From Phorcus lineatus (taxonomy: Eukaryota; Mollusca; Gastropoda; Trochida; Trochidae): a DNA stretch of 64,000 bases. The stretch lies in the NCBI GenBank assembly GCA_921293015.1, contig OV121086.1, positions 31,495,194-31,559,193 of the forward strand. Direction: 5' to 3'. The notes under the pieces were generated by a model. That model searched no databases and was not told the DNA's origin. It was given only the letters and a program-made list of their open reading frames with translations. A program made the translations under genes and the position numbers. Below, piece after piece: positions 25,201 to 64,000 of the stretch (position 1 is the first letter of the stretch; each line of letters opens with the position of its first letter).

Positions 25201-25206
25201 TTTTCC

Positions 25207-27548: not shown

Positions 27549-27639
27549 CTAAGATCATCACAAAATAAATAATGCATCAATGAGCTTCACAGGCAAATGC
27601 AGTTCTTTAATGAATTCCTTTTATTTCCGAAATGGCTTT

Positions 27640-30600: not shown

Positions 30601-30609
30601 TTTAACCTC

Positions 30610-32408: not shown

Positions 32409-32499
32409 CTGCAATAAAAGGCAGAAGTAGGTGAAAAAAGGTTAGCACACATCATATTAAATCAAGTTAAATAATTTTTTATTTTAAAAAAAATCTCAG

Positions 32500-33761: not shown

Positions 33762-33961
33762 NNNNNNNNNNNNNNNNNNNNNNNNNNNNNNNNNNNNNNN
33801 NNNNNNNNNNNNNNNNNNNNNNNNNNNNNNNNNNNNNNNNNNNNNNNNNNNNNNNNNNNNNNNNNNNNNNNNNNNNNNNNNNNNNNNNNNNNNNNNNNNN
33901 NNNNNNNNNNNNNNNNNNNNNNNNNNNNNNNNNNNNNNNNNNNNNNNNNNNNNNNNNNNNN
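33762..33961. other. Assembly gap, 200 N
   Basis: Exactly 200 Ns, a conventional fixed scaffold-gap size rather than a measured length. Unique intronic sequence ends on the left and satellite begins mid-unit on the right (the last seven bases of a unit). Order, orientation and distance across it are therefore scaffolding inferences. Confidence 0.99.
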
Positions 33962-34698
33962 CAAGTAGCAATTTCAAACGCTCATTAAATAAATTTTCAA
34001 AAGTAAATTCCACATAAAAAGCTATGTAGCAGTTAGATAAAGTTGTCAACTAACCTTTTCAATCGTTGTTACGGGCCGGCGGCGCTTTAATCCGCCGAAA
34101 TCGCCGTTTTCTGGGAGCTAACGCAAAGCGCGTCAGAGCTCTCTTCTGTCTATGACGTTACTATGGCACACGTCTGTTACGTCACGACTTGACCCTTGAA
34201 ACAATGAAAGGTCACGGTTCCGACTTTGGTCACCAAAATTTAGCTAGAACGCTAACTAGAGGGGTTAGCGATGTGAAAATGGTATCAAACGAAAGCTAAT
34301 TTAACGGCGCATCTTTTCCGATTGCCATGACGGCGGATTTGAGCCGTAGTTTGAACGGGAAGGGGCCCCAAAAAGGGTATAATGTGAACAGATGAGTAAA
34401 CTCCAGAGTACGTGTACTTGCACTTGGATACAGTGTGTGGCGATCAAATTCGGCCGCCACTACTTTGGATATACATCTACACACTTTTAGCAAATGTTTA
34501 GGCCACAAAATTCCCTAAGAATACCTAAAAGAAGCGACCCTAACTACTCGTAATGTCGTGTACAGCACTGAAGGAACTTATTCAATTTATTCTGCTCAAC
34601 GTTTAACACATACCCCACATGGCTACATCCCATTAACATACAATTGCAACGTAGGTTAAACGTCGGACATGTCCGAAATACGTATTTGAAGACATTAC

Positions 34699-34983
34699 AT
34701 GAAGCAACTAAGAGTCAGTCGGACAGCCGAAACTAACAGTACAGCTATACCCTTCGGCCAAAAAGCACTCAAAAAGTACTATAACGCACATGGGTTAACT
34801 ATGCCCCCAAATAGGTATTTAAAGGACGAAAATATACACAAAATGAACAAAAACATAAGGAATACTGTGTTAGAAGACTTGCAAAACACATGGCCATGTC
34901 AGAAAATGCCTACATACATCGTTGAATTAAAGAAACGCAAAGTCGGTAATTTCCCTATTGCAGCAACGGTTAAGACCAAGTAG
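34699..34983 (+). CDS. 94-codon ORF of the satellite unit (array 2 representative), unknown function
   Basis: This is the same frame as in array 1, taken from the first complete unit after the gap. All 28 intact complete array-2 copies, from 34699 to the one at 62107, predict an identical 94-residue protein. Only the unit at 62392-63408 is broken, by an extra TA (CTATATACCC) near 63170 that leaves an internal 60-codon ORF from 63226. The protein is strongly basic, has no recognisable domain, and has no membrane or signal segment. Each copy is followed by AATAAA and preceded, about 320 bp upstream, by GGGTATAATG. The lack of protein change contrasts with array 1, but could equally reflect recent copying. 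I treat coding status as unproven. Confidence 0.3.
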   Translation: MKQLRVSRTAETNSTAIPFGQKALKKYYNAHGLTMPPNRYLKDENIHKMNKNIRNTVLEDLQNTWPCQKMPTYIVELKKRKVGNFPIAATVKTK

Positions 34984-37900: not shown

Positions 37901-40900
37901 TAAGGAATACTGTGTTAGAAGACTTGCAAAACACATGGCCATGTCAGAAAATGCCTACATACATCGTTGAATTAAAGAAACGCAAAGTCGGTAATTTCCC
38001 TATTGCAGCAACGGTTAAGACCAAGTAGCAATTTCAAACGCTCATTAAATAAATTTTCAAAAGTAAATTCCACATAAAAAGCTATGTAGCAGTTAGATAA
38101 AGTTGTCAACTAACCTTTTCAATCGTTTTTACGGGCCGGCGGCGCTTTAATCCGCCGAAATCGCCGTTTTCTGGGAGCTAACGCAAAGCGCGTCAGAGCT
38201 CTCTTCTGTCTATGACGTTACTATGGCACACGTCTGTTACGTCACGACTTGACCCTTGAAACAATGAAAGGTCACGGTTCCGACTTTGGTCACCAAAATT
38301 TAGCTAGAACGCTAACTAGAGGGGTTAGCGATGTGAAAATGGTATCAAACGAAAGCTAATTTAACGGCGCATCTTTTCCGATTGCCATGACGGCGGATTT
38401 GAGCCGTAGTTTGAACGGGAAGGGGCCCCAAAAAGGGTATAATGTGAACAGATGAGTAAACTCCAGAGTACGTGTACTTGCACTTGGATACAGTGTGTGG
38501 CGATCAAATTCGGCCGCCACTACTTTGGATATACATCTACACACTTTTAGCAAATGTTTAGGCCACAAAATTCCCTAAGAATACCTAAAAGAAGCGACCC
38601 TAACTACTCGTAATGTCGTGTACAGCACTGAAGGAACTTATTCAATTTATTCTGCTCAACGTTTAACACATACCCCACATGGCTACATCCCATTAACATA
38701 CAATTGCAACGTAGGTTAAACGTCGGACATGTCCGAAATGCGTATTTGAAGACATTACATGAAGCAACTAAGAGTCAGTCGGACAGCCGAAACTAACAGT
38801 ACAGCTATACCCTTCGGCCAAAAAGCACTCAAAAAGTACTATAACGCACATGGGTTAACTATGCCCCCAAATAGGTATTTAAAGGACGAAAATATACACA
38901 AAATGAACAAAAACATAAGGAATACTGTGTTAGAAGACTTGCAAAACACATGGCCATGTCAGAAAATGCCTACATACATCGTTGAATTAAAGAAACGCAA
39001 AGTCGGTAATTTCCCTATTGCAGCAACGGTTAAGACCAAGTAGCAATTTCAAACGCTCATTAAATAAATTTTCAAAAGTAAATTCCACATAAAAAGCTAT
39101 GTAGCAGTTAGATAAAGTTGTCAACTAACCTTTTCAATCGTTGTTACGGGCCGGCGGCGCTTTAATCCGCCGAAATCGCCGTTTTCTGGGAGCTAACGCA
39201 AAGCGCGTCAGAGCTCTCTTCTGTCTATGACGTTACTATGGCACACGTCTGTTACGTCACGACTTGACCCTTGAAACAATGAAAGGTCACGGTTCCGACT
39301 TTGGTCACCAAAATTTAGCTAGAACGCTAACTAGAGGGGTTAGCGATGTGAAAATGGTATCAAACGAAAGCTAATTTAACGGCGCATCTTTTCCGATTGC
39401 CATGACGGCGGATTTGAGCCGTAGTTTGAACGGGAAGGGGCCCCAAAAAGGGTATAATGTGAACAGATGAGTAAACTCCAGAGTACGTGTACTTGCACTT
39501 GGATACAGTGTGTGGCGATCAAATTCGGCCGCCACTACTTTGGATATACATCTACACACTTTTAGCAAATGTTTAGGCCACAAAATTCCCTAAGAATACC
39601 TAAAAGAAGCGACCCTAACTACTCGTAATGTCGTGTACAGCACTGAAGGAACTTATTCAATTTATTCTGCTCAACGTTTAACACATACCCCACATGGCTA
39701 CATCCCATTAACATACAATTGCAACGTAGGTTAAACGTCGGACATGTCCGAAATACGTATTTGAAGACATTACATGAAGCAACTAAGAGTCAGTCGGACA
39801 GCCGAAACTAACAGTACAGCTATACCCTTCGGCCAAAAAGCACTCAAAAAGTACTATAACGCACATGGGTTAACTATGCCCCCAAATAGGTATTTAAAGG
39901 ACGAAAATATACACAAAATGAACAAAAACATAAGGAATACTGTGTTAGAAGACTTGCAAAACACATGGCCATGTCAGAAAATGCCTACATACATCGTTGA
40001 ATTAAAGAAACGCAAAGTCGGTAATTTCCCTATTGCAGCAACGGTTAAGACCAAGTAGCAATTTCAAACGCTCATTAAATAAATTTTCAAAAGTAAATTC
40101 CACATAAAAAGCTATGTAGCAGTTAGATAAAGTTGTCAACTAACCTTTTCAATCGTTGTTACGGGCCGGCGGCGCTTTAATCCGCCGAAATCGCCGTTTT
40201 CTGGGAGCTAACGCAAAGCGCGTCAGAGCTCTCTTCTGTCTATGACGTTACTATGGCACACGTCTGTTACGTCACGACTTGACCCTTGAAACAATGAAAG
40301 GTCACGGTTCCGACTTTGGTCACCAAAATTTAGCTAGAACGCTAACTAGAGGGGTTAGCGATGTGAAAATGGTATCAAACGAAAGCTAATTTAACGGCGC
40401 ATCTTTTCCGATTGCCATGACGGCGGATTTGAGCCGTAGTTTGAACGGGAAGGGGCCCCAAAAAGGGTATAATGTGAACAGATGAGTAAACTCCAGAGTA
40501 CGTGTACTTGCACTTGGATACAGTGTGTGGCGATCAAATTCGGCCGCCACTACTTTGGATATACATCTACACACTTTTAGCAAATGTTTAGGCCACAAAA
40601 TTCCCTAAGAATACCTAAAAGAAGCGACCCTAACTACTCGTAATGTCGTGTACAGCACTGAAGGAACTTATTCAATTTCTTCTGCTCAACGTTTAACACA
40701 TACCCCACATGGCTACATCCCATTAACATACAATTGCAACGTAGGTTAAACGTCGGACATGTCCGAAATACGTATTTGAAGACATTACATGAAGCAACTA
40801 AGAGTCAGTCGGACAGCCGAAACTAACAGTACAGCTATACCCTTCGGCCAAAAAGCACTCAAAAAGTACTATAACGCACATGGGTTAACTATGCCCCCAA

Positions 40901-42088
40901 ATAGGTATTTAAAGGACGAAAATATACACAAAATGAACAAAAACATAAGGAATACTGTGTTAGAAGACTTGCAAAACACATGGCCATGTCAGAAAATGCC
41001 TACATACATCGTTGAATTAAAGAAACGCAAAGTCGGTAATTTCCCTATTGCAGCAACGGTTAAGACCAAGTAGCAATTTCAAACGCTCATTAAATAAATT
41101 TTCAAAAGTAAATTCCACATAAAAAGCTATGTAGCAGTTAGATAAAGTTGTCAACTAACCTTTTCAATCGTTGTTACGGGCCGGCGGCGCTTTAATCCGC
41201 CGAAATCGCCGTTTTCTGGGAGCTAACGCAAAGCGCGTCAGAGCTCTCTTCTGTCTATGACGTTACTATGGCACACGTCTGTTACGTCACGACTTGACCC
41301 TTGAAACAATGAAAGGTCACGGTTCCGACTTTGGTCACCAAAATTTAGCTAGAACGCTAACTAGAGGGGTTAGCGATGTGAAAATGGTATCAAACGAAAG
41401 CTAATTTAACGGCGCATCTTTTCCGATTGCCATGACGGCGGATTTGAGCCGTAGTTTGAACGGGAAGGGGCCCCAAAAAGGGTATAATGTGAACAGATGA
41501 GTAAACTCCAGAGTACGTGTACTTGCACTTGGATACAGTGTGTGGCGATCAAATTCGGCCGCCACTACTTTGGATATACATCTACACACTTTTAGCAAAT
41601 GTTTAGGCCACAAAATTCCCTAAGAACACCTAAAAGAAGCGACCCTAACTACTCGTAATGTCGTGTACAGCACTGAAGGAACTTATTCAATTTCTTCTGC
41701 TCAACGTTTAACACATACCCCACATGGCTACATCCCATTAACATACAATTCCAACGTAGGTTAAACGTCGGACATGTCCGAAATACGTATTTGAAGACAT
41801 TACATGAAGCAACTAAGAGTCAGTCGGACAGCCGAAACTAACAGTACAGCTATACCCTTCGGCCAAAAAGCACTCAAAAAGTACTATAACGCACATGGGT
41901 TAACTATGCCCCCAAATAGGTATTTAAAGGACGAAAATATACACAAAATGAACAAAAACATAAGGAATACTGTGTTAGAAGACTTGCAAAACACATGGCC
42001 ATGTCAGAAAATGCCTACATACATCGTTGAATTAAAGAAACGCAAAGTCGGTAATTTCCCTATTGCAGCAACGGTTAAGACCAAGTAG

Positions 42089-45000
42089 CAATTTCAAACG
42101 CTCATTAAATAAATTTTCAAAAGTAAATTCCACATAAAAAGCTATGTAGCAGTTAGATAAAGTTGTCAACTAACCTTTTCAATCGTTTTTACGGGCCGGC
42201 GGCGCTTTAATCCGCCGAAATCGCCGTTTCCTGGGAGCTAACGCAAAGCGCGTCAGAGCTCTCTTCTGTCTATGACGTTACTATGGCACACGTCTGTTAC
42301 GTCACGACTTGACCCTTGAAACAATGAAAGGTCACGGTTCCGACTTTGGTCACCAAAATTTAGCTAGAACGCTAACTAGAGGGGTTAGCGATGTGAAAAT
42401 GGTATCAAACGAAAGCTAATTTAACGGCGCATCTTTTCCGATTGCCATGACGGCGGATTTGAGCCGTAGTTTGAACGGGAAGGGGCCCCAAAAAGGGTAT
42501 AATGTGAACAGATGAGTAAACTCCAGAGTACGTGTACTTGCACTTGGATACAGTGTGTGGCGATCAAATTCGGCCGCCACTACTTTGGATATACATCTAC
42601 ACACTTTTAGCAAATGTTTAGGCCACAAAATTCCCTAAGAATACCTATAAAAGAAGCGACCCTAACTACTCGTAATGTCGTGTACAGCACTGAAGGAACT
42701 TATTCAATTTATTCTGCTCAACGTTTAACACATACCCCACATGGCTACATCCCATTAACATACAATTGCAACGTAGGTTAAACGTCGGACATGTCCGAAA
42801 TACGTATTTGAAGACATTACATGAAGCAACTAAGAGTCAGTCGGACAGCCGAAACTAACAGTACAGCTATACCCTTCGGCCAAAAAGCACTCAAAAAGTA
42901 CTATAACGCACATGGGTTAACTATGCCCCCAAATAGGTATTTAAAGGACGAAAATATACACAAAATGAACAAAAACATAAGGAATACTGTGTTAGAAGAC
43001 TTGCAAAACACATGGCCATGTCAGAAAATGCCTACATACATCGTTGAATTAAAGAAACGCAAAGTCGGTAATTTCCCTATTGCAGCAACGGTTAAGACCA
43101 AGTAGCAATTTCAAACGCTCATTAAATAAATTTTCAAAAGTAAATTCCACATAAAAAGCTATGTAGCAGTTAGATAAAGTTGTCAACTAACCTTTTCAAT
43201 CGTTTTTACGGGCCGGCGGCGCTTTAATCCGCCGAAATCGCCGTTTTCTGGGAGCTAACGCAAAGCGCGTCAGAGCTCTCTTCTGTCTATGACGTTACTA
43301 TGGCACACGTCTGTTACGTCACGACTTGACCCTTGAAACAATGAAAGGTCACGGTTCCGACTTTGGTCACCAAAATTTAGCTAGAACGCTAACTAGAGGG
43401 GTTAGCGATGTGAAAATGGTATCAAACGAAAGCTAATTTAACGGCGCATCTTTTCCGATTGCCATGACGGCGGATTTGAGCCGTAGTTTGAACGGGAAGG
43501 GGCCCCAAAAAGGGTATAATGTGAACAGATGAGTAAACTCCAGAGTACGTGTACTTGCACTTGGATACAGTGTGTGGCGATCAAATTCGGCCGCCACTAC
43601 TTTGGATATACATCTACACACTTTTAGCAAATGTTTAGGCCACAAAATTCCCTAAGAACACCTAAAAGAAGCGACCCTAACTACTCGTAATGTCGTGTAC
43701 AGCACTGAAGGAACTTATTCAATTTATTCTGCTCAACGTTTAACACATACCCCACATGGCTACATCCCATTAACATACAATTGCAACGTAGGTTAAACGT
43801 CGGACATGTCCGAAATACGTATTTGAAGACATTACATGAAGCAACTAAGAGTCAGTCGGACAGCCGAAACTAACAGTACAGCTATACCCTTCGGCCAAAA
43901 AGCACTCAAAAAGTACTATAACGCACATGGGTTAACTATGCCCCCAAATAGGTATTTAAAGGACGAAAATATACACAAAATGAACAAAAACATAAGGAAT
44001 ACTGTGTTAGAAGACTTGCAAAACACATGGCCATGTCAGAAAATGCCTACATACATCGTTGAATTAAAGAAACGCAAAGTCGGTAATTTCCCTATTGCAG
44101 CAACGGTTAAGACCAAGTAGCAATTTCAAACGCTCATTAAATAAATTTTCAAAAGTAAATTCCACATAAAAAGCTATGTAGCAGTTAGATAAAGTTGTCA
44201 ACTAACCTTTTCAATCGTTGTTACGGGCCGGCGGCGCTTTAATCCGCCGAAATCGCCGTTTTCTGGGAGCTAACGCAAAGCGCGTCAGAGCTCTCTTCTG
44301 TCTATGACGTTACTATGGCACACGTCTGTTACGTCACGACTTGACCCTTGAAACAATGAAAGGTCACGGTTCCGACTTTGGTCACCAAAATTTAGCTAGA
44401 ACGCTAACTAGAGGGGTTAGCGATGTGAAAATGGTATCAAACGAAAGCTAATTTAACGGCGCATCTTTTCCGATTGCCATGACGGCGGATTTGAGCCGTA
44501 GTTTGAACGGGAAGGGGCCCCAAAAAGGGTATAATGTGAACAGATGAGTAAACTCCAGAGTACGTGTACTTGCACTTGGATACAGTGTGTGGCGATCAAA
44601 TTCGGCCGCCACTACTTTGGATATACATCTACACACTTTTAGCAAATGTTTAGGCCACAAAATTCCCTAAGAATACCTAAAAGAAGCGACCCTAACTACT
44701 CGTAATGTCGTGTACAGCACTGAAGGAACTTATTCAATTTATTCTGCTCAACGTTTAACACATACCCCACATGGCTACATCCCATTAACATACAATTGCA
44801 ACGTAGGTTAAACGTCGGACATGTCCGAAATACGTATTTGAAGACATTACATGAAGCAACTAAGAGTCAGTCGGACAGCCGAAACTAACAGTACAGCTAT
44901 ACCCTTCGGCCAAAAAGCACTCAAAAAGTACTATAACGCACATGGGTTAACTATGCCCCCAAATAGGTATTTAAAGGACGAAAATATACACAAAATGAAC

Positions 45001-47164
45001 AAAAACATAAGGAATACTGTGTTAGAAGACTTGCAAAACACATGGCCATGTCAGAAAATGCCTACATACATCGTTGAATTAAAGAAACGCAAAGTCGGTA
45101 ATTTCCCTATTGCAGCAACGGTTAAGACCAAGTAGCAATTTCAAACGCTCATTAAATAAATTTTCAAAAGTAAATTCCACATAAAAAGCTATGTAGCAGT
45201 TAGATAAAGTTGTCAACTAACCTTTTCAATCGTTTTTACGGGCCGGCGGCGCTTTAATCCGCCGAAATCGCCGTTTCCTGGGAGCTAACGCAAAGCGCGT
45301 CAGAGCTCTCTTCTGTCTATGACGTTACTATGGCACACGTCTGTTACGTCACGACTTGACCCTTGAAACAATGAAAGGTCACGGTTCCGACTTTGGTCAC
45401 CAAAATTTAGCTAGAACGCTAACTAGAGGGGTTAGCGATGTGAAAATGGTATCAAACGAAAGCTAATTTAACGGCGCATCTTTTCCGATTGCCATGACGG
45501 CGGATTTGAGCCGTAGTTTGAACGGGAAGGGGCCCCAAAAAGGGTATAATGTGAACAGATGAGTAAACTCCAGAGTACGTGTACTTGCACTTGGATACAG
45601 TGTGTGGCGATCAAATTCGGCCGCCACTACTTTGGATATACATCTACACACTTTTAGCAAATGTTTAGGCCACAAAATTCCCTAAGAATACCTAAAAGAA
45701 GCGACCCTAACTACTCGTAATGTCGTGTACAGCACTGAAGGAACTTATTCAATTTCTTCTGCTCAACGTTTAACACATACCCCACATGGCTACATCCCAT
45801 TAACATACAATTGCAACGTAGGTTAAACGTCGGACATGTCCGAAATACGTATTTGAAGACATTACATGAAGCAACTAAGAGTCAGTCGGACAGCCGAAAC
45901 TAACAGTACAGCTATACCCTTCGGCCAAAAAGCACTCAAAAAGTACTATAACGCACATGGGTTAACTATGCCCCCAAATAGGTATTTAAAGGACGAAAAT
46001 ATACACAAAATGAACAAAAACATAAGGAATACTGTGTTAGAAGACTTGCAAAACACATGGCCATGTCAGAAAATGCCTACATACATCGTTGAATTAAAGA
46101 AACGCAAAGTCGGTAATTTCCCTATTGCAGCAACGGTTAAGACCAAGTAGCAATTTCAAACGCTCATTAAATAAATTTTCAAAAGTAAATTCCACATAAA
46201 AAGCTATGTAGCAGTTAGATAAAGTTGTCAACTAACCTTTTCAATCGTTTTTACGGGCCGGCGGCGCTTTAATCCGCCGAATCGCCGTTTTCTGGGAGCT
46301 AACGCAAAGCGCGTCAGAGCTCTCTTCTGTCTATGACGTTACTATGGCACACGTCTGTTACGTCACGACTTGACCAATGAAACAATGAAAGGTCACGGTT
46401 CCGACTTTGGTCACCAAAATTTAGCTAGAACGCTAACTAGAGGGGTTAGTGATGTGAAAATGGTATCAAACGAAAGCTAATTTAACGGCGCATCTTTTCC
46501 GATTGCCATGACGGCGGATTTGAGCCGTAGTTTGAACGGGAAGGGGCCCCAAAAAGGGTATAATGTGAACAGATGAGTAAACTCCAGAGTACGTGTACTT
46601 GCACTTGGATACAGTGTGTGGCGATCAAATTCGGCCGCCACTACTTTGGATATACATCTACACACTTTTAGCAAATGTTTAGGCCACAAAATTCCCTAAG
46701 AACACCTAAAAGAAGCGACCCTAACTACTCGTAATGTCGTGTACAGCACTGAAGGAACTTATTCAATTTCTTCTGCTCAACGTTTAACACATACCCCACA
46801 TGGCTACATCCCATTAACATACAATTGCAACGTAGGTTAAACGTCGGACATGTCCGAAATACGTATTTGAAGACATTACATGAAGCAACTAAGAGTCAGT
46901 CGGACAGCCGAAACTAACAGTACAGCTATACCCTTCGGCCAAAAAGCACTCAAAAAGTACTATAACGCACATGGGTTAACTATGCCCCCAAATAGGTATT
47001 TAAAGGACGAAAATATACACAAAATGAACAAAAACATAAGGAATACTGTGTTAGAAGACTTGCAAAACACATGGCCATGTCAGAAAATGCCTACATACAT
47101 CGTTGAATTAAAGAAACGCAAAGTCGGTAATTTCCCTATTGCAGCAACGGTTAAGACCAAGTAG
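42089..47164 (+). repeat. Higher-order block A-B-C-D-E, array 2, copy 1 (5076 bp)
   Basis: Five units (starts 42089, 43106, 44121, 45136, 46151; lengths 1017, 1015, 1015, 1015, 1014). A has GTTTCCTGGG plus CCTATAAAAG. B has AACACC with TTTATTCTG. C has GTTGTT with AATACC and TTTATTCTG. D has GTTTCCTGGG, AATACC and TTTCTTCTG. E has CCGCCGAATCG, GACCAATG, GTTAGTG, AACACC and TTTCTTCTG. Confidence 0.9.
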
Positions 47165-50100
47165 CAATTTCAAACGCTCATTAAATAAATTTTCAAAAGT
47201 AAATTCCACATAAAAAGCTATGTAGCAGTTAGATAAAGTTGTCAACTAACCTTTTCAATCGTTTTTACGGGCCGGCGGCGCTTTAATCCGCCGAAATCGC
47301 CGTTTCCTGGGAGCTAACGCAAAGCGCGTCAGAGCTCTCTTCTGTCTATGACGTTACTATGGCACACGTCTGTTACGTCACGACTTGACCCTTGAAACAA
47401 TGAAAGGTCACGGTTCCGACTTTGGTCACCAAAATTTAGCTAGAACGCTAACTAGAGGGGTTAGCGATGTGAAAATGGTATCAAACGAAAGCTAATTTAA
47501 CGGCGCATCTTTTCCGATTGCCATGACGGCGGATTTGAGCCGTAGTTTGAACGGGAAGGGGCCCCAAAAAGGGTATAATGTGAACAGATGAGTAAACTCC
47601 AGAGTACGTGTACTTGCACTTGGATACAGTGTGTGGCGATCAAATTCGGCCGCCACTACTTTGGATATACATCTACACACTTTTAGCAAATGTTTAGGCC
47701 ACAAAATTCCCTAAGAATACCTATAAAAGAAGCGACCCTAACTACTCGTAATGTCGTGTACAGCACTGAAGGAACTTATTCAATTTATTCTGCTCAACGT
47801 TTAACACATACCCCACATGGCTACATCCCATTAACATACAATTGCAACGTAGGTTAAACGTCGGACATGTCCGAAATACGTATTTGAAGACATTACATGA
47901 AGCAACTAAGAGTCAGTCGGACAGCCGAAACTAACAGTACAGCTATACCCTTCGGCCAAAAAGCACTCAAAAAGTACTATAACGCACATGGGTTAACTAT
48001 GCCCCCAAATAGGTATTTAAAGGACGAAAATATACACAAAATGAACAAAAACATAAGGAATACTGTGTTAGAAGACTTGCAAAACACATGGCCATGTCAG
48101 AAAATGCCTACATACATCGTTGAATTAAAGAAACGCAAAGTCGGTAATTTCCCTATTGCAGCAACGGTTAAGACCAAGTAGCAATTTCAAACGCTCATTA
48201 AATAAATTTTCAAAAGTAAATTCCACATAAAAAGCTATGTAGCAGTTAGATAAAGTTGTCAACTAACCTTTTCAATCGTTTTTACGGGCCGGCGGCGCTT
48301 TAATCCGCCGAAATCGCCGTTTTCTGGGAGCTAACGCAAAGCGCGTCAGAGCTCTCTTCTGTCTATGACGTTACTATGGCACACGTCTGTTACGTCACGA
48401 CTTGACCCTTGAAACAATGAAAGGTCACGGTTCCGACTTTGGTCACCAAAATTTAGCTAGAACGCTAACTAGAGGGGTTAGCGATGTGAAAATGGTATCA
48501 AACGAAAGCTAATTTAACGGCGCATCTTTTCCGATTGCCATGACGGCGGATTTGAGCCGTAGTTTGAACGGGAAGGGGCCCCAAAAAGGGTATAATGTGA
48601 ACAGATGAGTAAACTCCAGAGTACGTGTACTTGCACTTGGATACAGTGTGTGGCGATCAAATTCGGCCGCCACTACTTTGGATATACATCTACACACTTT
48701 TAGCAAATGTTTAGGCCACAAAATTCCCTAAGAACACCTAAAAGAAGCGACCCTAACTACTCGTAATGTCGTGTACAGCACTGAAGGAACTTATTCAATT
48801 TATTCTGCTCAACGTTTAACACATACCCCACATGGCTACATCCCATTAACATACAATTGCAACGTAGGTTAAACGTCGGACATGTCCGAAATACGTATTT
48901 GAAGACATTACATGAAGCAACTAAGAGTCAGTCGGACAGCCGAAACTAACAGTACAGCTATACCCTTCGGCCAAAAAGCACTCAAAAAGTACTATAACGC
49001 ACATGGGTTAACTATGCCCCCAAATAGGTATTTAAAGGACGAAAATATACACAAAATGAACAAAAACATAAGGAATACTGTGTTAGAAGACTTGCAAAAC
49101 ACATGGCCATGTCAGAAAATGCCTACATACATCGTTGAATTAAAGAAACGCAAAGTCGGTAATTTCCCTATTGCAGCAACGGTTAAGACCAAGTAGCAAT
49201 TTCAAACGCTCATTAAATAAATTTTCAAAAGTAAATTCCACATAAAAAGCTATGTAGCAGTTAGATAAAGTTGTCAACTAACCTTTTCAATCGTTGTTAC
49301 GGGCCGGCGGCGCTTTAATCCGCCGAAATCGCCGTTTTCTGGGAGCTAACGCAAAGCGCGTCAGAGCTCTCTTCTGTCTATGACGTTACTATGGCACACG
49401 TCTGTTACGTCACGACTTGACCCTTGAAACAATGAAAGGTCACGGTTCCGACTTTGGTCACCAAAATTTAGCTAGAACGCTAACTAGAGGGGTTAGCGAT
49501 GTGAAAATGGTATCAAACGAAAGCTAATTTAACGGCGCATCTTTTCCGATTGCCATGACGGCGGATTTGAGCCGTAGTTTGAACGGGAAGGGGCCCCAAA
49601 AAGGGTATAATGTGAACAGATGAGTAAACTCCAGAGTACGTGTACTTGCACTTGGATACAGTGTGTGGCGATCAAATTCGGCCGCCACTACTTTGGATAT
49701 ACATCTACACACTTTTAGCAAATGTTTAGGCCACAAAATTCCCTAAGAATACCTAAAAGAAGCGACCCTAACTACTCGTAATGTCGTGTACAGCACTGAA
49801 GGAACTTATTCAATTTATTCTGCTCAACGTTTAACACATACCCCACATGGCTACATCCCATTAACATACAATTGCAACGTAGGTTAAACGTCGGACATGT
49901 CCGAAATACGTATTTGAAGACATTACATGAAGCAACTAAGAGTCAGTCGGACAGCCGAAACTAACAGTACAGCTATACCCTTCGGCCAAAAAGCACTCAA
50001 AAAGTACTATAACGCACATGGGTTAACTATGCCCCCAAATAGGTATTTAAAGGACGAAAATATACACAAAATGAACAAAAACATAAGGAATACTGTGTTA

Positions 50101-52240
50101 GAAGACTTGCAAAACACATGGCCATGTCAGAAAATGCCTACATACATCGTTGAATTAAAGAAACGCAAAGTCGGTAATTTCCCTATTGCAGCAACGGTTA
50201 AGACCAAGTAGCAATTTCAAACGCTCATTAAATAAATTTTCAAAAGTAAATTCCACATAAAAAGCTATGTAGCAGTTAGATAAAGTTGTCAACTAACCTT
50301 TTCAATCGTTTTTACGGGCCGGCGGCGCTTTAATCCGCCGAAATCGCCGTTTCCTGGGAGCTAACGCAAAGCGCGTCAGAGCTCTCTTCTGTCTATGACG
50401 TTACTATGGCACACGTCTGTTACGTCACGACTTGACCCTTGAAACAATGAAAGGTCACGGTTCCGACTTTGGTCACCAAAATTTAGCTAGAACGCTAACT
50501 AGAGGGGTTAGCGATGTGAAAATGGTATCAAACGAAAGCTAATTTAACGGCGCATCTTTTCCGATTGCCATGACGGCGGATTTGAGCCGTAGTTTGAACG
50601 GGAAGGGGCCCCAAAAAGGGTATAATGTGAACAGATGAGTAAACTCCAGAGTACGTGTACTTGCACTTGGATACAGTGTGTGGCGATCAAATTCGGCCGC
50701 CACTACTTTGGATATACATCTACACACTTTTAGCAAATGTTTAGGCCACAAAATTCCCTAAGAATACCTAAAAGAAGCGACCCTAACTACTCGTAATGTC
50801 GTGTACAGCACTGAAGGAACTTATTCAATTTCTTCTGCTCAACGTTTAACACATACCCCACATGGCTACATCCCATTAACATACAATTGCAACGTAGGTT
50901 AAACGTCGGACATGTCCGAAATACGTATTTGAAGACATTACATGAAGCAACTAAGAGTCAGTCGGACAGCCGAAACTAACAGTACAGCTATACCCTTCGG
51001 CCAAAAAGCACTCAAAAAGTACTATAACGCACATGGGTTAACTATGCCCCCAAATAGGTATTTAAAGGACGAAAATATACACAAAATGAACAAAAACATA
51101 AGGAATACTGTGTTAGAAGACTTGCAAAACACATGGCCATGTCAGAAAATGCCTACATACATCGTTGAATTAAAGAAACGCAAAGTCGGTAATTTCCCTA
51201 TTGCAGCAACGGTTAAGACCAAGTAGCAATTTCAAACGCTCATTAAATAAATTTTCAAAAGTAAATTCCACATAAAAAGCTATGTAGCAGTTAGATAAAG
51301 TTGTCAACTAACCTTTTCAATCGTTTTTACGGGCCGGCGGCGCTTTAATCCGCCGAATCGCCGTTTTCTGGGAGCTAACGCAAAGCGCGTCAGAGCTCTC
51401 TTCTGTCTATGACGTTACTATGGCACACGTCTGTTACGTCACGACTTGACCAATGAAACAATGAAAGGTCACGGTTCCGACTTTGGTCACCAAAATTTAG
51501 CTAGAACGCTAACTAGAGGGGTTAGTGATGTGAAAATGGTATCAAACGAAAGCTAATTTAACGGCGCATCTTTTCCGATTGCCATGACGGCGGATTTGAG
51601 CCGTAGTTTGAACGGGAAGGGGCCCCAAAAAGGGTATAATGTGAACAGATGAGTAAACTCCAGAGTACGTGTACTTGCACTTGGATACAGTGTGTGGCGA
51701 TCAAATTCGGCCGCCACTACTTTGGATATACATCTACACACTTTTAGCAAATGTTTAGGCCACAAAATTCCCTAAGAACACCTAAAAGAAGCGACCCTAA
51801 CTACTCGTAATGTCGTGTACAGCACTGAAGGAACTTATTCAATTTCTTCTGCTCAACGTTTAACACATACCCCACATGGCTACATCCCATTAACATACAA
51901 TTGCAACGTAGGTTAAACGTCGGACATGTCCGAAATACGTATTTGAAGACATTACATGAAGCAACTAAGAGTCAGTCGGACAGCCGAAACTAACAGTACA
52001 GCTATACCCTTCGGCCAAAAAGCACTCAAAAAGTACTATAACGCACATGGGTTAACTATGCCCCCAAATAGGTATTTAAAGGACGAAAATATACACAAAA
52101 TGAACAAAAACATAAGGAATACTGTGTTAGAAGACTTGCAAAACACATGGCCATGTCAGAAAATGCCTACATACATCGTTGAATTAAAGAAACGCAAAGT
52201 CGGTAATTTCCCTATTGCAGCAACGGTTAAGACCAAGTAG
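47165..52240 (+). repeat. Higher-order block A-B-C-D-E, array 2, copy 2 (5076 bp)
   Basis: It directly follows copy 1 with the same five-unit variant order and the same unit lengths (starts 47165, 48182, 49197, 50212, 51227). I noticed no difference from copy 1 at the marker sites. Confidence 0.9.
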
Positions 52241-53255
52241 CAATTTCAAACGCTCATTAAATAAATTTTCAAAAGTAAATTCCACATAAAAAGCTATGTA
52301 GCAGTTAGATAAAGTTGTCAACTAACCTTTTCAATCGTTGTTACGGGCCGGCGGCGCTTTAATCCGCCGAAATCGCCGTTTTCTGGGAGCTAACGCAAAG
52401 CGCGTCAGAGCTCTCTTCTGTCTATGACGTTACTATGGCACACGTCTGTTACGTCACGACTTGACCCTTGAAACAATGAAAGGTCACGGTTCCGACTTTG
52501 GTCACCAAAATTTAGCTAGAACGCTAACTAGAGGGGTTAGCGATGTGAAAATGGTATCAAACGAAAGCTAATTTAACGGCGCATCTTTTCCGATTGCCAT
52601 GACGGCGGATTTGAGCCGTAGTTTGAACGGGAAGGGGCCCCAAAAAGGGTATAATGTGAACAGATGAGTAAACTCCAGAGTACGTGTACTTGCACTTGGA
52701 TACAGTGTGTGGCGATCAAATTCGGCCGCCACTACTTTGGATATACATCTACACACTTTTAGCAAATGTTTAGGCCACAAAATTCCCTAAGAATACCTAA
52801 AAGAAGCGACCCTAACTACTCGTAATGTCGTGTACAGCACTGAAGGAACTTATTCAATTTATTCTGCTCAACGTTTAACACATACCCCACATGGCTACAT
52901 CCCATTAACATACAATTGCAACGTAGGTTAAACGTCGGACATGTCCGAAATACGTATTTGAAGACATTACATGAAGCAACTAAGAGTCAGTCGGACAGCC
53001 GAAACTAACAGTACAGCTATACCCTTCGGCCAAAAAGCACTCAAAAAGTACTATAACGCACATGGGTTAACTATGCCCCCAAATAGGTATTTAAAGGACG
53101 AAAATATACACAAAATGAACAAAAACATAAGGAATACTGTGTTAGAAGACTTGCAAAACACATGGCCATGTCAGAAAATGCCTACATACATCGTTGAATT
53201 AAAGAAACGCAAAGTCGGTAATTTCCCTATTGCAGCAACGGTTAAGACCAAGTAG

Positions 53256-56200
53256 CAATTTCAAACGCTCATTAAATAAATTTTCAAAAGTAAATTCCAC
53301 ATAAAAAGCTATGTAGCAGTTAGATAAAGTTGTCAACTAACCTTTTCAATCGTTTTTACGGGCCGGCGGCGCTTTAATCCGCCGAAATCGCCGTTTCCTG
53401 GGAGCTAACGCAAAGCGCGTCAGAGCTCTCTTCTGTCTATGACGTTACTATGGCACACGTCTGTTACGTCACGACTTGACCCTTGAAACAATGAAAGGTC
53501 ACGGTTCCGACTTTGGTCACCAAAATTTAGCTAGAACGCTAACTAGAGGGGTTAGCGATGTGAAAATGGTATCAAACGAAAGCTAATTTAACGGCGCATC
53601 TTTTCCGATTGCCATGACGGCGGATTTGAGCCGTAGTTTGAACGGGAAGGGGCCCCAAAAAGGGTATAATGTGAACAGATGAGTAAACTCCAGAGTACGT
53701 GTACTTGCACTTGGATACAGTGTGTGGCGATCAAATTCGGCCGCCACTACTTTGGATATACATCTACACACTTTTAGCAAATGTTTAGGCCACAAAATTC
53801 CCTAAGAATACCTATAAAAGAAGCGACCCTAACTACTCGTAATGTCGTGTACAGCACTGAAGGAACTTATTCAATTTATTCTGCTCAACGTTTAACACAT
53901 ACCCCACATGGCTACATCCCATTAACATACAATTGCAACGTAGGTTAAACGTCGGACATGTCCGAAATACGTATTTGAAGACATTACATGAAGCAACTAA
54001 GAGTCAGTCGGACAGCCGAAACTAACAGTACAGCTATACCCTTCGGCCAAAAAGCACTCAAAAAGTACTATAACGCACATGGGTTAACTATGCCCCCAAA
54101 TAGGTATTTAAAGGACGAAAATATACACAAAATGAACAAAAACATAAGGAATACTGTGTTAGAAGACTTGCAAAACACATGGCCATGTCAGAAAATGCCT
54201 ACATACATCGTTGAATTAAAGAAACGCAAAGTCGGTAATTTCCCTATTGCAGCAACGGTTAAGACCAAGTAGCAATTTCAAACGCTCATTAAATAAATTT
54301 TCAAAAGTAAATTCCACATAAAAAGCTATGTAGCAGTTAGATAAAGTTGTCAACTAACCTTTTCAATCGTTTTTACGGGCCGGCGGCGCTTTAATCCGCC
54401 GAAATCGCCGTTTTCTGGGAGCTAACGCAAAGCGCGTCAGAGCTCTCTTCTGTCTATGACGTTACTATGGCACACGTCTGTTACGTCACGACTTGACCCT
54501 TGAAACAATGAAAGGTCACGGTTCCGACTTTGGTCACCAAAATTTAGCTAGAACGCTAACTAGAGGGGTTAGCGATGTGAAAATGGTATCAAACGAAAGC
54601 TAATTTAACGGCGCATCTTTTCCGATTGCCATGACGGCGGATTTGAGCCGTAGTTTGAACGGGAAGGGGCCCCAAAAAGGGTATAATGTGAACAGATGAG
54701 TAAACTCCAGAGTACGTGTACTTGCACTTGGATACAGTGTGTGGCGATCAAATTCGGCCGCCACTACTTTGGATATACATCTACACACTTTTAGCAAATG
54801 TTTAGGCCACAAAATTCCCTAAGAACACCTAAAAGAAGCGACCCTAACTACTCGTAATGTCGTGTACAGCACTGAAGGAACTTATTCAATTTATTCTGCT
54901 CAACGTTTAACACATACCCCACATGGCTACATCCCATTAACATACAATTGCAACGTAGGTTAAACGTCGGACATGTCCGAAATACGTATTTGAAGACATT
55001 ACATGAAGCAACTAAGAGTCAGTCGGACAGCCGAAACTAACAGTACAGCTATACCCTTCGGCCAAAAAGCACTCAAAAAGTACTATAACGCACATGGGTT
55101 AACTATGCCCCCAAATAGGTATTTAAAGGACGAAAATATACACAAAATGAACAAAAACATAAGGAATACTGTGTTAGAAGACTTGCAAAACACATGGCCA
55201 TGTCAGAAAATGCCTACATACATCGTTGAATTAAAGAAACGCAAAGTCGGTAATTTCCCTATTGCAGCAACGGTTAAGACCAAGTAGCAATTTCAAACGC
55301 TCATTAAATAAATTTTCAAAAGTAAATTCCACATAAAAAGCTATGTAGCAGTTAGATAAAGTTGTCAACTAACCTTTTCAATCGTTGTTACGGGCCGGCG
55401 GCGCTTTAATCCGCCGAAATCGCCGTTTTCTGGGAGCTAACGCAAAGCGCGTCAGAGCTCTCTTCTGTCTATGACGTTACTATGGCACACGTCTGTTACG
55501 TCACGACTTGACCCTTGAAACAATGAAAGGTCACGGTTCCGACTTTGGTCACCAAAATTTAGCTAGAACGCTAACTAGAGGGGTTAGCGATGTGAAAATG
55601 GTATCAAACGAAAGCTAATTTAACGGCGCATCTTTTCCGATTGCCATGACGGCGGATTTGAGCCGTAGTTTGAACGGGAAGGGGCCCCAAAAAGGGTATA
55701 ATGTGAACAGATGAGTAAACTCCAGAGTACGTGTACTTGCACTTGGATACAGTGTGTGGCGATCAAATTCGGCCGCCACTACTTTGGATATACATCTACA
55801 CACTTTTAGCAAATGTTTAGGCCACAAAATTCCCTAAGAATACCTAAAAGAAGCGACCCTAACTACTCGTAATGTCGTGTACAGCACTGAAGGAACTTAT
55901 TCAATTTATTCTGCTCAACGTTTAACACATACCCCACATGGCTACATCCCATTAACATACAATTGCAACGTAGGTTAAACGTCGGACATGTCCGAAATAC
56001 GTATTTGAAGACATTACATGAAGCAACTAAGAGTCAGTCGGACAGCCGAAACTAACAGTACAGCTATACCCTTCGGCCAAAAAGCACTCAAAAAGTACTA
56101 TAACGCACATGGGTTAACTATGCCCCCAAATAGGTATTTAAAGGACGAAAATATACACAAAATGAACAAAAACATAAGGAATACTGTGTTAGAAGACTTG

Positions 56201-58331
56201 CAAAACACATGGCCATGTCAGAAAATGCCTACATACATCGTTGAATTAAAGAAACGCAAAGTCGGTAATTTCCCTATTGCAGCAACGGTTAAGACCAAGT
56301 AGCAATTTCAAACGCTCATTAAATAAATTTTCAAAAGTAAATTCCACATAAAAAGCTATGTAGCAGTTAGATAAAGTTGTCAACTAACCTTTTCAATCGT
56401 TTTTACGGGCCGGCGGCGCTTTAATCCGCCGAAATCGCCGTTTCCTGGGAGCTAACGCAAAGCGCGTCAGAGCTCTCTTCTGTCTATGACGTTACTATGG
56501 CACACGTCTGTTACGTCACGACTTGACCCTTGAAACAATGAAAGGTCACGGTTCCGACTTTGGTCACCAAAATTTAGCTAGAACGCTAACTAGAGGGGTT
56601 AGCGATGTGAAAATGGTATCAAACGAAAGCTAATTTAACGGCGCATCTTTTCCGATTGCCATGACGGCGGATTTGAGCCGTAGTTTGAACGGGAAGGGGC
56701 CCCAAAAAGGGTATAATGTGAACAGATGAGTAAACTCCAGAGTACGTGTACTTGCACTTGGATACAGTGTGTGGCGATCAAATTCGGCCGCCACTACTTT
56801 GGATATACATCTACACACTTTTAGCAAATGTTTAGGCCACAAAATTCCCTAAGAATACCTAAAAGAAGCGACCCTAACTACTCGTAATGTCGTGTACAGC
56901 ACTGAAGGAACTTATTCAATTTCTTCTGCTCAACGTTTAACACATACCCCACATGGCTACATCCCATTAACATACAATTGCAACGTAGGTTAAACGTCGG
57001 ACATGTCCGAAATACGTATTTGAAGACATTACATGAAGCAACTAAGAGTCAGTCGGACAGCCGAAACTAACAGTACAGCTATACCCTTCGGCCAAAAAGC
57101 ACTCAAAAAGTACTATAACGCACATGGGTTAACTATGCCCCCAAATAGGTATTTAAAGGACGAAAATATACACAAAATGAACAAAAACATAAGGAATACT
57201 GTGTTAGAAGACTTGCAAAACACATGGCCATGTCAGAAAATGCCTACATACATCGTTGAATTAAAGAAACGCAAAGTCGGTAATTTCCCTATTGCAGCAA
57301 CGGTTAAGACCAAGTAGCAATTTCAAACGCTCATTAAATAAATTTTCAAAAGTAAATTCCACATAAAAAGCTATGTAGCAGTTAGATAAAGTTGTCAACT
57401 AACCTTTTCAATCGTTTTTACGGGCCGGCGGCGCTTTAATCCGCCGAATCGCCGTTTTCTGGGAGCTAACGCAAAGCGCGTCAGAGCTCTCTTCTGTCTA
57501 TGACGTTACTATGGCACACGTCTGTTACGTCACGACTTGACCAATGAAACAATGAAAGGTCACGGTTCCGACTTTGGTCACCAAAATTTAGCTAGAACGC
57601 TAACTAGAGGGGTTAGTGATGTGAAAATGGTATCAAACGAAAGCTAATTTAACGGCGCATCTTTTCCGATTGCCATGACGGCGGATTTGAGCCGTAGTTT
57701 GAACGGGAAGGGGCCCCAAAAAGGGTATAATGTGAACAGATGAGTAAACTCCAGAGTACGTGTACTTGCACTTGGATACAGTGTGTGGCGATCAAATTCG
57801 GCCGCCACTACTTTGGATATACATCTACACACTTTTAGCAAATGTTTAGGCCACAAAATTCCCTAAGAACACCTAAAAGAAGCGACCCTAACTACTCGTA
57901 ATGTCGTGTACAGCACTGAAGGAACTTATTCAATTTCTTCTGCTCAACGTTTAACACATACCCCACATGGCTACATCCCATTAACATACAATTGCAACGT
58001 AGGTTAAACGTCGGACATGTCCGAAATACGTATTTGAAGACATTACATGAAGCAACTAAGAGTCAGTCGGACAGCCGAAACTAACAGTACAGCTATACCC
58101 TTCGGCCAAAAAGCACTCAAAAAGTACTATAACGCACATGGGTTAACTATGCCCCCAAATAGGTATTTAAAGGACGAAAATATACACAAAATGAACAAAA
58201 ACATAAGGAATACTGTGTTAGAAGACTTGCAAAACACATGGCCATGTCAGAAAATGCCTACATACATCGTTGAATTAAAGAAACGCAAAGTCGGTAATTT
58301 CCCTATTGCAGCAACGGTTAAGACCAAGTAG
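53256..58331 (+). repeat. Higher-order block A-B-C-D-E, array 2, copy 3 (5076 bp)
   Basis: Same order and lengths again (starts 53256, 54273, 55288, 56303, 57318), separated from copy 2 by one extra C-type unit at 52241-53255. It is followed by C (58332), D (59347), an E-like unit lacking the A deletion (60362), and C (61377). Confidence 0.9.
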
Positions 58332-61300
58332 CAATTTCAAACGCTCATTAAATAAATTTTCAAAAGTAAATTCCACATAAAAAGCTATGTAGCAGTTAGA
58401 TAAAGTTGTCAACTAACCTTTTCAATCGTTGTTACGGGCCGGCGGCGCTTTAATCCGCCGAAATCGCCGTTTTCTGGGAGCTAACGCAAAGCGCGTCAGA
58501 GCTCTCTTCTGTCTATGACGTTACTATGGCACACGTCTGTTACGTCACGACTTGACCCTTGAAACAATGAAAGGTCACGGTTCCGACTTTGGTCACCAAA
58601 ATTTAGCTAGAACGCTAACTAGAGGGGTTAGCGATGTGAAAATGGTATCAAACGAAAGCTAATTTAACGGCGCATCTTTTCCGATTGCCATGACGGCGGA
58701 TTTGAGCCGTAGTTTGAACGGGAAGGGGCCCCAAAAAGGGTATAATGTGAACAGATGAGTAAACTCCAGAGTACGTGTACTTGCACTTGGATACAGTGTG
58801 TGGCGATCAAATTCGGCCGCCACTACTTTGGATATACATCTACACACTTTTAGCAAATGTTTAGGCCACAAAATTCCCTAAGAATACCTAAAAGAAGCGA
58901 CCCTAACTACTCGTAATGTCGTGTACAGCACTGAAGGAACTTATTCAATTTATTCTGCTCAACGTTTAACACATACCCCACATGGCTACATCCCATTAAC
59001 ATACAATTGCAACGTAGGTTAAACGTCGGACATGTCCGAAATACGTATTTGAAGACATTACATGAAGCAACTAAGAGTCAGTCGGACAGCCGAAACTAAC
59101 AGTACAGCTATACCCTTCGGCCAAAAAGCACTCAAAAAGTACTATAACGCACATGGGTTAACTATGCCCCCAAATAGGTATTTAAAGGACGAAAATATAC
59201 ACAAAATGAACAAAAACATAAGGAATACTGTGTTAGAAGACTTGCAAAACACATGGCCATGTCAGAAAATGCCTACATACATCGTTGAATTAAAGAAACG
59301 CAAAGTCGGTAATTTCCCTATTGCAGCAACGGTTAAGACCAAGTAGCAATTTCAAACGCTCATTAAATAAATTTTCAAAAGTAAATTCCACATAAAAAGC
59401 TATGTAGCAGTTAGATAAAGTTGTCAACTAACCTTTTCAATCGTTTTTACGGGCCGGCGGCGCTTTAATCCGCCGAAATCGCCGTTTCCTGGGAGCTAAC
59501 GCAAAGCGCGTCAGAGCTCTCTTCTGTCTATGACGTTACTATGGCACACGTCTGTTACGTCACGACTTGACCCTTGAAACAATGAAAGGTCACGGTTCCG
59601 ACTTTGGTCACCAAAATTTAGCTAGAACGCTAACTAGAGGGGTTAGCGATGTGAAAATGGTATCAAACGAAAGCTAATTTAACGGCGCATCTTTTCCGAT
59701 TGCCATGACGGCGGATTTGAGCCGTAGTTTGAACGGGAAGGGGCCCCAAAAAGGGTATAATGTGAACAGATGAGTAAACTCCAGAGTACGTGTACTTGCA
59801 CTTGGATACAGTGTGTGGCGATCAAATTCGGCCGCCACTACTTTGGATATACATCTACACACTTTTAGCAAATGTTTAGGCCACAAAATTCCCTAAGAAT
59901 ACCTAAAAGAAGCGACCCTAACTACTCGTAATGTCGTGTACAGCACTGAAGGAACTTATTCAATTTCTTCTGCTCAACGTTTAACACATACCCCACATGG
60001 CTACATCCCATTAACATACAATTGCAACGTAGGTTAAACGTCGGACATGTCCGAAATACGTATTTGAAGACATTACATGAAGCAACTAAGAGTCAGTCGG
60101 ACAGCCGAAACTAACAGTACAGCTATACCCTTCGGCCAAAAAGCACTCAAAAAGTACTATAACGCACATGGGTTAACTATGCCCCCAAATAGGTATTTAA
60201 AGGACGAAAATATACACAAAATGAACAAAAACATAAGGAATACTGTGTTAGAAGACTTGCAAAACACATGGCCATGTCAGAAAATGCCTACATACATCGT
60301 TGAATTAAAGAAACGCAAAGTCGGTAATTTCCCTATTGCAGCAACGGTTAAGACCAAGTAGCAATTTCAAACGCTCATTAAATAAATTTTCAAAAGTAAA
60401 TTCCACATAAAAAGCTATGTAGCAGTTAGATAAAGTTGTCAACTAACCTTTTCAATCGTTTTTACGGGCCGGCGGCGCTTTAATCCGCCGAAATCGCCGT
60501 TTTCTGGGAGCTAACGCAAAGCGCGTCAGAGCTCTCTTCTGTCTATGACGTTACTATGGCACACGTCTGTTACGTCACGACTTGACCAATGAAACAATGA
60601 AAGGTCACGGTTCCGACTTTGGTCACCAAAATTTAGCTAGAACGCTAACTAGAGGGGTTAGTGATGTGAAAATGGTATCAAACGAAAGCTAATTTAACGG
60701 CGCATCTTTTCCGATTGCCATGACGGCGGATTTGAGCCGTAGTTTGAACGGGAAGGGGCCCCAAAAAGGGTATAATGTGAACAGATGAGTAAACTCCAGA
60801 GTACGTGTACTTGCACTTGGATACAGTGTGTGGCGATCAAATTCGGCCGCCACTACTTTGGATATACATCTACACACTTTTAGCAAATGTTTAGGCCACA
60901 AAATTCCCTAAGAACACCTAAAAGAAGCGACCCTAACTACTCGTAATGTCGTGTACAGCACTGAAGGAACTTATTCAATTTCTTCTGCTCAACGTTTAAC
61001 ACATACCCCACATGGCTACATCCCATTAACATACAATTGCAACGTAGGTTAAACGTCGGACATGTCCGAAATACGTATTTGAAGACATTACATGAAGCAA
61101 CTAAGAGTCAGTCGGACAGCCGAAACTAACAGTACAGCTATACCCTTCGGCCAAAAAGCACTCAAAAAGTACTATAACGCACATGGGTTAACTATGCCCC
61201 CAAATAGGTATTTAAAGGACGAAAATATACACAAAATGAACAAAAACATAAGGAATACTGTGTTAGAAGACTTGCAAAACACATGGCCATGTCAGAAAAT

Positions 61301-64000
61301 GCCTACATACATCGTTGAATTAAAGAAACGCAAAGTCGGTAATTTCCCTATTGCAGCAACGGTTAAGACCAAGTAGCAATTTCAAACGCTCATTAAATAA
61401 ATTTTCAAAAGTAAATTCCACATAAAAAGCTATGTAGCAGTTAGATAAAGTTGTCAACTAACCTTTTCAATCGTTGTTACGGGCCGGCGGCGCTTTAATC
61501 CGCCGAAATCGCCGTTTTCTGGGAGCTAACGCAAAGCGCGTCAGAGCTCTCTTCTGTCTATGACGTTACTATGGCACACGTCTGTTACGTCACGACTTGA
61601 CCCTTGAAACAATGAAAGGTCACGGTTCCGACTTTGGTCACCAAAATTTAGCTAGAACGCTAACTAGAGGGGTTAGCGATGTGAAAATGGTATCAAACGA
61701 AAGCTAATTTAACGGCGCATCTTTTCCGATTGCCATGACGGCGGATTTGAGCCGTAGTTTGAACGGGAAGGGGCCCCAAAAAGGGTATAATGTGAACAGA
61801 TGAGTAAACTCCAGAGTACGTGTACTTGCACTTGGATACAGTGTGTGGCGATCAAATTCGGCCGCCACTACTTTGGATATACATCTACACACTTTTAGCA
61901 AATGTTTAGGCCACAAAATTCCCTAAGAATACCTAAAAGAAGCGACCCTAACTACTCGTAATGTCGTGTACAGCACTGAAGGAACTTATTCAATTTATTC
62001 TGCTCAACGTTTAACACATACCCCACATGGCTACATCCCATTAACATACAATTGCAACGTAGGTTAAACGTCGGACATGTCCGAAATACGTATTTGAAGA
62101 CATTACATGAAGCAACTAAGAGTCAGTCGGACAGCCGAAACTAACAGTACAGCTATACCCTTCGGCCAAAAAGCACTCAAAAAGTACTATAACGCACATG
62201 GGTTAACTATGCCCCCAAATAGGTATTTAAAGGACGAAAATATACACAAAATGAACAAAAACATAAGGAATACTGTGTTAGAAGACTTGCAAAACACATG
62301 GCCATGTCAGAAAATGCCTACATACATCGTTGAATTAAAGAAACGCAAAGTCGGTAATTTCCCTATTGCAGCAACGGTTAAGACCAAGTAGCAATTTCAA
62401 ACGCTCATTAAATAAATTTTCAAAAGTAAATTCCACATAAAAAGCTATGTAGCAGTTAGATAAAGTTGTCAACTAACCTTTTCAATCGTTTTTACGGGCC
62501 GGCGGCGCTTTAATCCGCCGAAATCGCCGTTTTCTGGGAGCTAACGCAAAGCGCGTCAGAGCTCTCTTCTGTCTATGACGTTACTATGGCACACGTCTGT
62601 TACGTCACGACTTGACCCTTGAAACAATGAAAGGTCACGGTTCCGACTTTGGTCACCAAAATTTAGCTAGAACGCTAACTAGAGGGGTTAGCGATGTGAA
62701 AATGGTATCAAACGAAAGCTAATTTAACGGCGCATCTTTTCCGATTGCCATGACGGCGGATTTGAGCCGTAGTTTGAACGGGAAGGGGCCCCAAAAAGGG
62801 TATAATGTGAACAGATGAGTAAACTCCAGAGTACGTGTACTTGCACTTGGATACAGTGTGTGGCGATCAAATTCGGCCGCCACTACTTTGGATATACATC
62901 TACACACTTTTAGCAAATGTTTAGGCCACAAAATTCCCTAAGAATACCTAAAAGAAGCGACCCTAACTACTCGTAATGTCGTGTACAGCACTGAAGGAAC
63001 TTATTCAATTTATTCTGCTCAACGTTTAACACATACCCCACATGGCTACATCCCATTAACATACAATTGCAACGTAGGTTAAACGTCGGACATGTCCGAA
63101 ATACGTATTTGAAGACATTACATGAAGCAACTAAGAGTCAGTCGGACAGCCGAAACTAACAGTACAGCTATATACCCTTCGGCCAAAAAGCACTCAAAAA
63201 GTACTATAACGCACATGGGTTAACTATGCCCCCAAATAGGTATTTAAAGGACGAAAATATACACAAAATGAACAAAAACATAAGGAATACTGTGTTAGAA
63301 GACTTGCAAAACACATGGCCATGTCAGAAAATGCCTACATACATCGTTGAATTAAAGAAACGCAAAGTCGGTAATTTCCCTATTGCAGCAACGGTTAAGA
63401 CCAAGTAGCAATTTCAAACGCTCATTAAATAAATTTTCAAAAGTAAATTCCACATAAAAAGCTATGTAGCAGTTAGATAAAGTTGTCAACTAACCTTTTC
63501 AATCGTTTTTACGGGCCGGCGGCGCTTTAATCCGCCGAAATCGCCGTTTTCTGGGAGCTAACGCAAAGCGCGTCAGAGCTCTCTTCTGTCTATGACGTTA
63601 CTATGGCACACGTCTGTTACGTCACGACTTGACCCTTGAAACAATGAAAGGTCACGGTTCCGACTTTGGTCACCAAAATTTAGCTAGAACGCTAACTAGA
63701 GGGGTTAGCGATGTGAAAATGGTATCAAACGAAAGCTAATTTAACGGCGCATCTTTTCCGATTGCCATGACGGCGGATTTGAGCCGTAGTTTGAACGGGA
63801 AGGGGCCCCAAAAAGGGTATAATGTGAACAGATGAGTAAACTCCAGAGTACGTGTACTTGCACTTGGATACAGTGTGTGGCGATCAAATTCGGCCGCCAC
63901 TACTTTGGATATACATCTACACACTTTTAGCAAATGTTTAGGCCACAAAATTCCCTAAGAATACCTAAAAGAAGCGACCCTAACTACTCGTAATGTCGTG

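Follow-up and report, generated by a model that had tools for sequence, protein, structure and literature searches.

Results

Two arrays of one satellite

A satellite array of the gastropod Phorcus lineatus contains three copies of a five-unit block, and the locus raises the question of whether this block is a higher-order repeat that is amplified as such, or the product of copying several units at a time in varying numbers. Within the window (the whole stretch of 64,000 nucleotides analysed here), 53 satellite unit starts were found on one strand and 0 on the other. They belong to two arrays on one scaffold.

Positions 1 to 22640, plus strand: array 1, the same satellite with 22 complete units and partial ends, carrying shared variants of its own.
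Positions 33762 to 33961, no strand: assembly gap, a run of 200 N directly preceding array 2.
Positions 33962 to 64000, plus strand: array 2, 29 complete units of the ~1,015-bp satellite and partial units.

The complete units of array 2 are 1,014–1,017 bp long and are accompanied by one 595-bp piece, the partial unit u53, which was left out of the counts. The array begins at the scaffold gap and continues past the right end of the window. Forming a long head-to-tail array of one non-coding unit, the repeat belongs among the satellites. Tandem Repeats Finder was run with a longest period of 500, so the ~1,015-bp arrays are unlisted in its output. The units were aligned and labelled by their shared variants, with u23 (cut at 22454–23468, leaving the array at 22640) aligned but dropped from the labelling. 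Internal subrepeats in the unit amount to just short pairs of 10–13 bases.

About 11 kb of non-satellite sequence and the 200-N gap separate the arrays, and because of the gap the distance between them is a statement of the assembly. A blastn comparison found no satellite pieces in the sequence between the arrays (22643–33761; best E-value 1.1), and one exact 34-base satellite pattern had 0 matches in viral_contigs. Variants common within array 1 are absent from array 2, and vice versa, so that each array seems to have been homogenised on its own. The CpG observed/expected ratio is 1.17 in arrays 1 (1–22640) and 2 (33962–64000) versus 0.49 between them (22643–33761); the high ratio may mean that the satellite is unmethylated in the germ line or was amplified recently.

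No coding or RNA role of the unit is indicated. The unit shows neither an Rfam match at the gathering score nor a tRNA, and Pfam gave no match for two of its open reading frames. Its 94-codon frame is shortened in 10 of the 51 copies found by their exact start, and it is not unusually long, since frames of this length occur in 50 of 500 base-shuffled units. Outside the satellite, array 1 stops partway through a unit, and the sequence that takes over (22641–23713) opens with CCCAGCAAAC and continues with tandem repeats of 95 and 24 bp that are rich in ACGTT/ACGTCCCCTGAATGTTG; it may be a mobile element. At 30592–31089, a 165-codon open frame matching zf-RVT, the reverse-transcriptase zinc-binding domain (E 6.5e-09), is probably a retrotransposon remnant. 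The interval between the arrays also holds a 178-bp tandem repeat in 2.6 copies (27684–28151) and two open stretches on the minus strand (32260–32451 and 32998–33204), which are candidate exons of a minus-strand gene. Peptides tried from these stretches had no Pfam match, and weak matches of one minus-strand peptide to phage coat proteins (PDB, E 0.029 and 0.11) were taken as chance.

Three identical five-unit blocks in array 2

Labelling of units u24–u52 gave the order C F E' C F* C G H A B C D E A B C D E C A B C D E C D E' C F', which comprises the following parts, the blocks and the extra C being defined by unit labels and string comparison.

Positions 33966 to 42085, plus strand: array 2 before block 1, units u24–u31 in the order C F E' C F* C G H, outside the five-unit order.
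Positions 42086 to 47161, plus strand: block 1, A-B-C-D-E (u32–u36), 5,076 bp.
Positions 47162 to 52237, plus strand: block 2, A-B-C-D-E (u37–u41), equal to block 1.
Positions 52238 to 53252, plus strand: the 'extra' C unit (u42), closing a six-unit block u37–u42.
Positions 53253 to 58328, plus strand: block 3, A-B-C-D-E (u43–u47), equal to blocks 1 and 2.
Positions 58329 to 62388, plus strand: C-D-E'-C (u48–u51), 3' of block 3; C-D-E' equals u45–u47 at a three-unit shift bar the 1-bp deletion of E.

The original prediction described three 5,076-bp A-B-C-D-E blocks with one extra C between copies 2 and 3, identical to each other while neighbouring units differ, and expected unit n to be closer to n+5 than to n+1. 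The unit comparison bears out each of these points. Blocks 1–3 are equal 5,076-bp strings, both at their own boundaries and at the offset starts 42089, 47165 and 53256. Haplotype A comprises u32, u37 and u43; B comprises u33, u38 and u44; D comprises u35, u40, u46 and also u49; and E comprises u36, u41 and u47, with E', which is without the 1-bp deletion of E, at u26 and u50. Haplotype C comprises u34, u39 and u45, and also u24, u27, u29, u42, u48 and u51 (u42, u45 and u48 being identical C units); it is the commonest unit of array 2 (9/29) and is not position-specific. The five haplotypes are separated by few changes: the pairwise differences among A–E are 3, 3, 2, 8, 2, 3, 5, 3, 7 and 6 events per ~1,015 bp, so that the monomers inside a block (2–8 events) are about 99.2–99.8% identical.

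No two adjacent complete units of array 2 are identical (0/28 pairs at lag 1), and identical pairs number 6/26 at lag 3, 7/24 at lag 5 and 7/23 at lag 6. Among u32–u47, the counts are 0/15 at lag 1, 5/11 at lag 5, 5/10 at lag 6 and 5/5 at lag 11, and in this part unit n is thus closer to n+k than to n+1, as in arrays of the alpha type, with k being 5 or 6. Five different labels recurring three times in the same order were seen in 0/500,000 label shuffles, and twice in 58/500,000. The lag counts alone were reached by 2,925 (lag 5), 2,325 (lag 6) and 16,399 (lag 3) of 200,000 shuffles, the lag-5 count alone being just moderately unusual because C makes up so many of the units.

A six-unit step alongside the five-unit step

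The list of exact repeats was limited to those of at least 2,500 bp, and the longest of them steps by six units.

Positions 46771 to 59905, plus strand: longest exact repeat, 46771–53814 equal to 52862–59905, 7,044 bp at a shift of 6,091 bp (six units), the copies overlapping.

The five-unit exact repeat extends over 5,512 bp at a shift of 5,076, and blocks 1 and 3 match exactly over 5,512 bp at a shift of 11,167. In addition, array 2 contains an exact repeat with a three-unit step (2,555 bp, shift 3,044), and another, far more widely spaced (3,135 bp, shift 24,363), joins its left and right parts. All steps in the array are whole numbers of units. Block 2 and the extra C form a six-unit block, A-B-C-D-E-C, which recurs as block 3 and the next C. 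One five-unit and one six-unit removal reduce the exact label string of array 2 from 29 to 18 units, an order that is irreducible; when E/E' and the F variants are merged, a further three-unit removal leaves 15 units, and 1 of 5,000 shuffles of the merged string was as reducible. Two duplications thus account for the extra C, and its separate insertion is unneeded. A fixed five-unit step as the amplification unit was rejected, since lag 6 equals lag 5 in strength and six units is the step of the longest exact repeat. These two features, the C D E' C that follows block 3 and the gap before array 2 are additions to the original prediction.

Three identical five-unit blocks in which no neighbours are identical are what would be seen if A-B-C-D-E were the settled amplification unit of a larger array, a true higher-order repeat whose extra C and irregular ends are edge effects. 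We consider this very unlikely: matches are as frequent at lag 6 as at lag 5 and the longest exact repeat steps six units, the units are nearly identical to one another, and the order is missing on both flanks (u24–u31 and u48–u52) and in array 1. Rolling-circle copying of an excised five-unit circle, reinserted by homologous recombination, is also expected to give identical in-register blocks, but one five-unit circle predicts a constant five-unit step, and the six-unit step here needs a second event anyway; this route appears scarcely credible to us.

A four-unit order in array 1

The A-B-C-D-E order is absent from array 1, in which another order occurs twice.

Positions 2118 to 10253, plus strand: P-Q-R-S twice in array 1 (u3–u10), with private changes in u3 and u9.

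With the private changes in u3, u9 and u12 merged in the array 1 labels of the shuffle tests, four different labels occurred in one order twice in 498/500,000 shuffles. An exact 3,052-bp repeat at a shift of 8,140 is also present in array 1.

Exact block identity by itself cannot separate exchange from assembly error. The assembler may have repeated the same stretch, so that the animal carries fewer blocks; zero differences among the three blocks agree with this, and the run of 200 N at the start of array 2 is evidence of difficult assembly at this place. On the other hand, the longest exact repeat of array 2, at 7,044 bp, is below the length of typical high-accuracy long reads, which applies here if such reads were used. 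Array 1 has a multi-unit duplication with private changes in its copies, which argues that such duplications are real in this satellite. An assembly artefact is therefore rather unlikely in our judgement. The different step of array 1 (four units, with private changes between the copies) supports a reading in which units were exchanged.

Probable duplication of several units by exchange

Our preferred reading, which we regard as probable, is that several units at once were recently duplicated in register within a homogenised ~1,015-bp satellite, via homologous exchange between misaligned copies. The exchange would be in register and would proceed by unequal sister-chromatid exchange or a related repair route. 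One compatible history starts from the ancestral order H A B C D E C D E' C F', to which a six-unit (ABCDEC) and a five-unit (ABCDE) duplication would have been added, in either order; C-D-E and C-D-E' would go back to an older duplication of three units, E and E' differing by one base. The two larger duplications, if exchange produced them, would place the exchange sites within 436 and 953 bp, by subtraction from the exact-repeat lengths. Block identity, varying steps, low divergence and mixed variant combinations are observed, and the mechanism and the order of events are our inference.

In array 2, 4 of 45 informative column pairs had all four variant combinations, as did 13 of 36 in array 1, the columns of one indel being counted separately. 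Short tracts have therefore probably moved between units, and recurrent mutation is a possible source of the same signal. Movement of short tracts, like multi-unit copying, would follow from exchange between misaligned copies.

A toy neutral exchange model, in which rates were chosen by us and units were handled as whole labels, was run 400 times per setting. Steps of up to 8 units produced repeated blocks of 4–7 units in 245 runs (three-copy blocks in 44), and steps of up to 4 units in 94 (three-copy blocks in 6). When steps were limited to 1 or to 2 units, such blocks appeared in 0/400 runs each. The claim of the original prediction that the amplified unit is the block and not the monomer therefore stands for the recent events, in which several units were copied together. 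Against our preferred reading, three copies of one five-unit block would be uncommon under the model: they arose in 13/400 runs with steps up to 8 and, in an earlier version with 300 runs for each of four mutation rates, in 0.7–3.0% of the runs. Nothing beyond exchange of several units is required to explain the blocks.

Discussion

The blocks of array 2 can be compared with several tandem repeats. Alpha-satellite higher-order repeats combine monomers of about 70% identity into blocks that are 97–100% identical to one another, and on some human chromosomes the block consists of five monomers (PMC8122249). The likeness to alpha satellite that was originally proposed holds in that several monomers are copied as a block and the blocks are more alike than neighbouring monomers. 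It does not extend further: in place of monomers diverged to about 70% identity (PMC8122249) there are nearly identical ones, in place of one block size in many successive copies there are, within the window, three copies and steps of 5 and 6, and C is not tied to a position.

The CENP-B box is not required of all centromeres. Scored with the generally known core motif, one satellite unit has no such box: its best site has 6 of 9 core bases, and among 500 shuffled units 421 contain a site that matches at least 7.

By the looser TRASH default for higher-order repetition, as for CEN178 of Arabidopsis (at least 3 monomers, variant score limit 5; PMC10199239), the A–E blocks, which have 0 differences, would count as higher-order repetition, but the test is weak here, since a difference of at most 5 events is also found between many unrelated units of array 2. 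Like CEN178, the satellite has nearly identical monomers that were duplicated in blocks. Unlike that centromeric repeat of the 178-bp class (a length taken from its name), the present unit is ~1,015 bp long. The Drosophila melanogaster histone array, in which local homogenisation is attributed mainly to within-chromosome exchange and adjacent units are most alike (0.12% within strains; PMC12400953), is similar in having a long unit whose copies diverge by less than one percent, and is a near parallel for within-chromosome exchange. It bears genes and its neighbours are the most alike, whereas array 2 has no identical adjacent complete units. Higher-order organisation of tandem units is likewise described, in long reads, for pike 5S rDNA arrays (PMC5437419); those consist of rRNA genes, and the present window has no Rfam match.

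Among molluscs, the SSUsat satellite of the bivalve Spisula subtruncata has a nucleotide diversity of 0.0294 in 39 monomers, and cloned SSUsat multimers are described as having no higher-order organisation (PMC5537241); the present satellite is homogeneous like SSUsat but, unlike it, forms multi-unit blocks. In one bivalve paper, 'higher-order' refers to units formed from subrepeats (PMC5874043), and neither 'higher-order' nor 'higher order' had a match in four oyster and mussel satellite papers. A five-unit order in a ~1-kb mollusc satellite was not found in the open-licence literature searched, which included PMC5874043, PMC5537241, PMC8268682, PMC13218726, PMC5437419, PMC8122249, PMC12400953, PMC10199239, PMC12818792, PMC7348941, PMC10048060 and PMC11136912. 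That such structure has seldom been described in satellites of molluscs, as originally stated, is consistent with the open-licence papers searched.

We would attach no coding or chromosomal function to the blocks, which are read from one assembly. They are possibly an early stage of a higher-order repeat and not a fixed one. A stronger form of this idea, in which array 2 shows a higher-order repeat just forming, with nested 3-, 5- and 6-unit duplications before divergence locks the blocks, while array 1 on the same scaffold sets out with a 4-unit step, seems unlikely to us.

Unequal exchange that duplicates several units is the usual account of both the uniformity of satellites and the origin of higher-order repeats. 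In this locus, the individual steps are legible, being 3, 5 and 6 units in array 2 and 4 units in array 1, all in register. The satellite of P. lineatus is thus a useful worked example of the expected behaviour of such an array and no new kind of system. If the block continues beyond the window at a constant step, it would represent an early, chromosome-specific higher-order repeat in an invertebrate.
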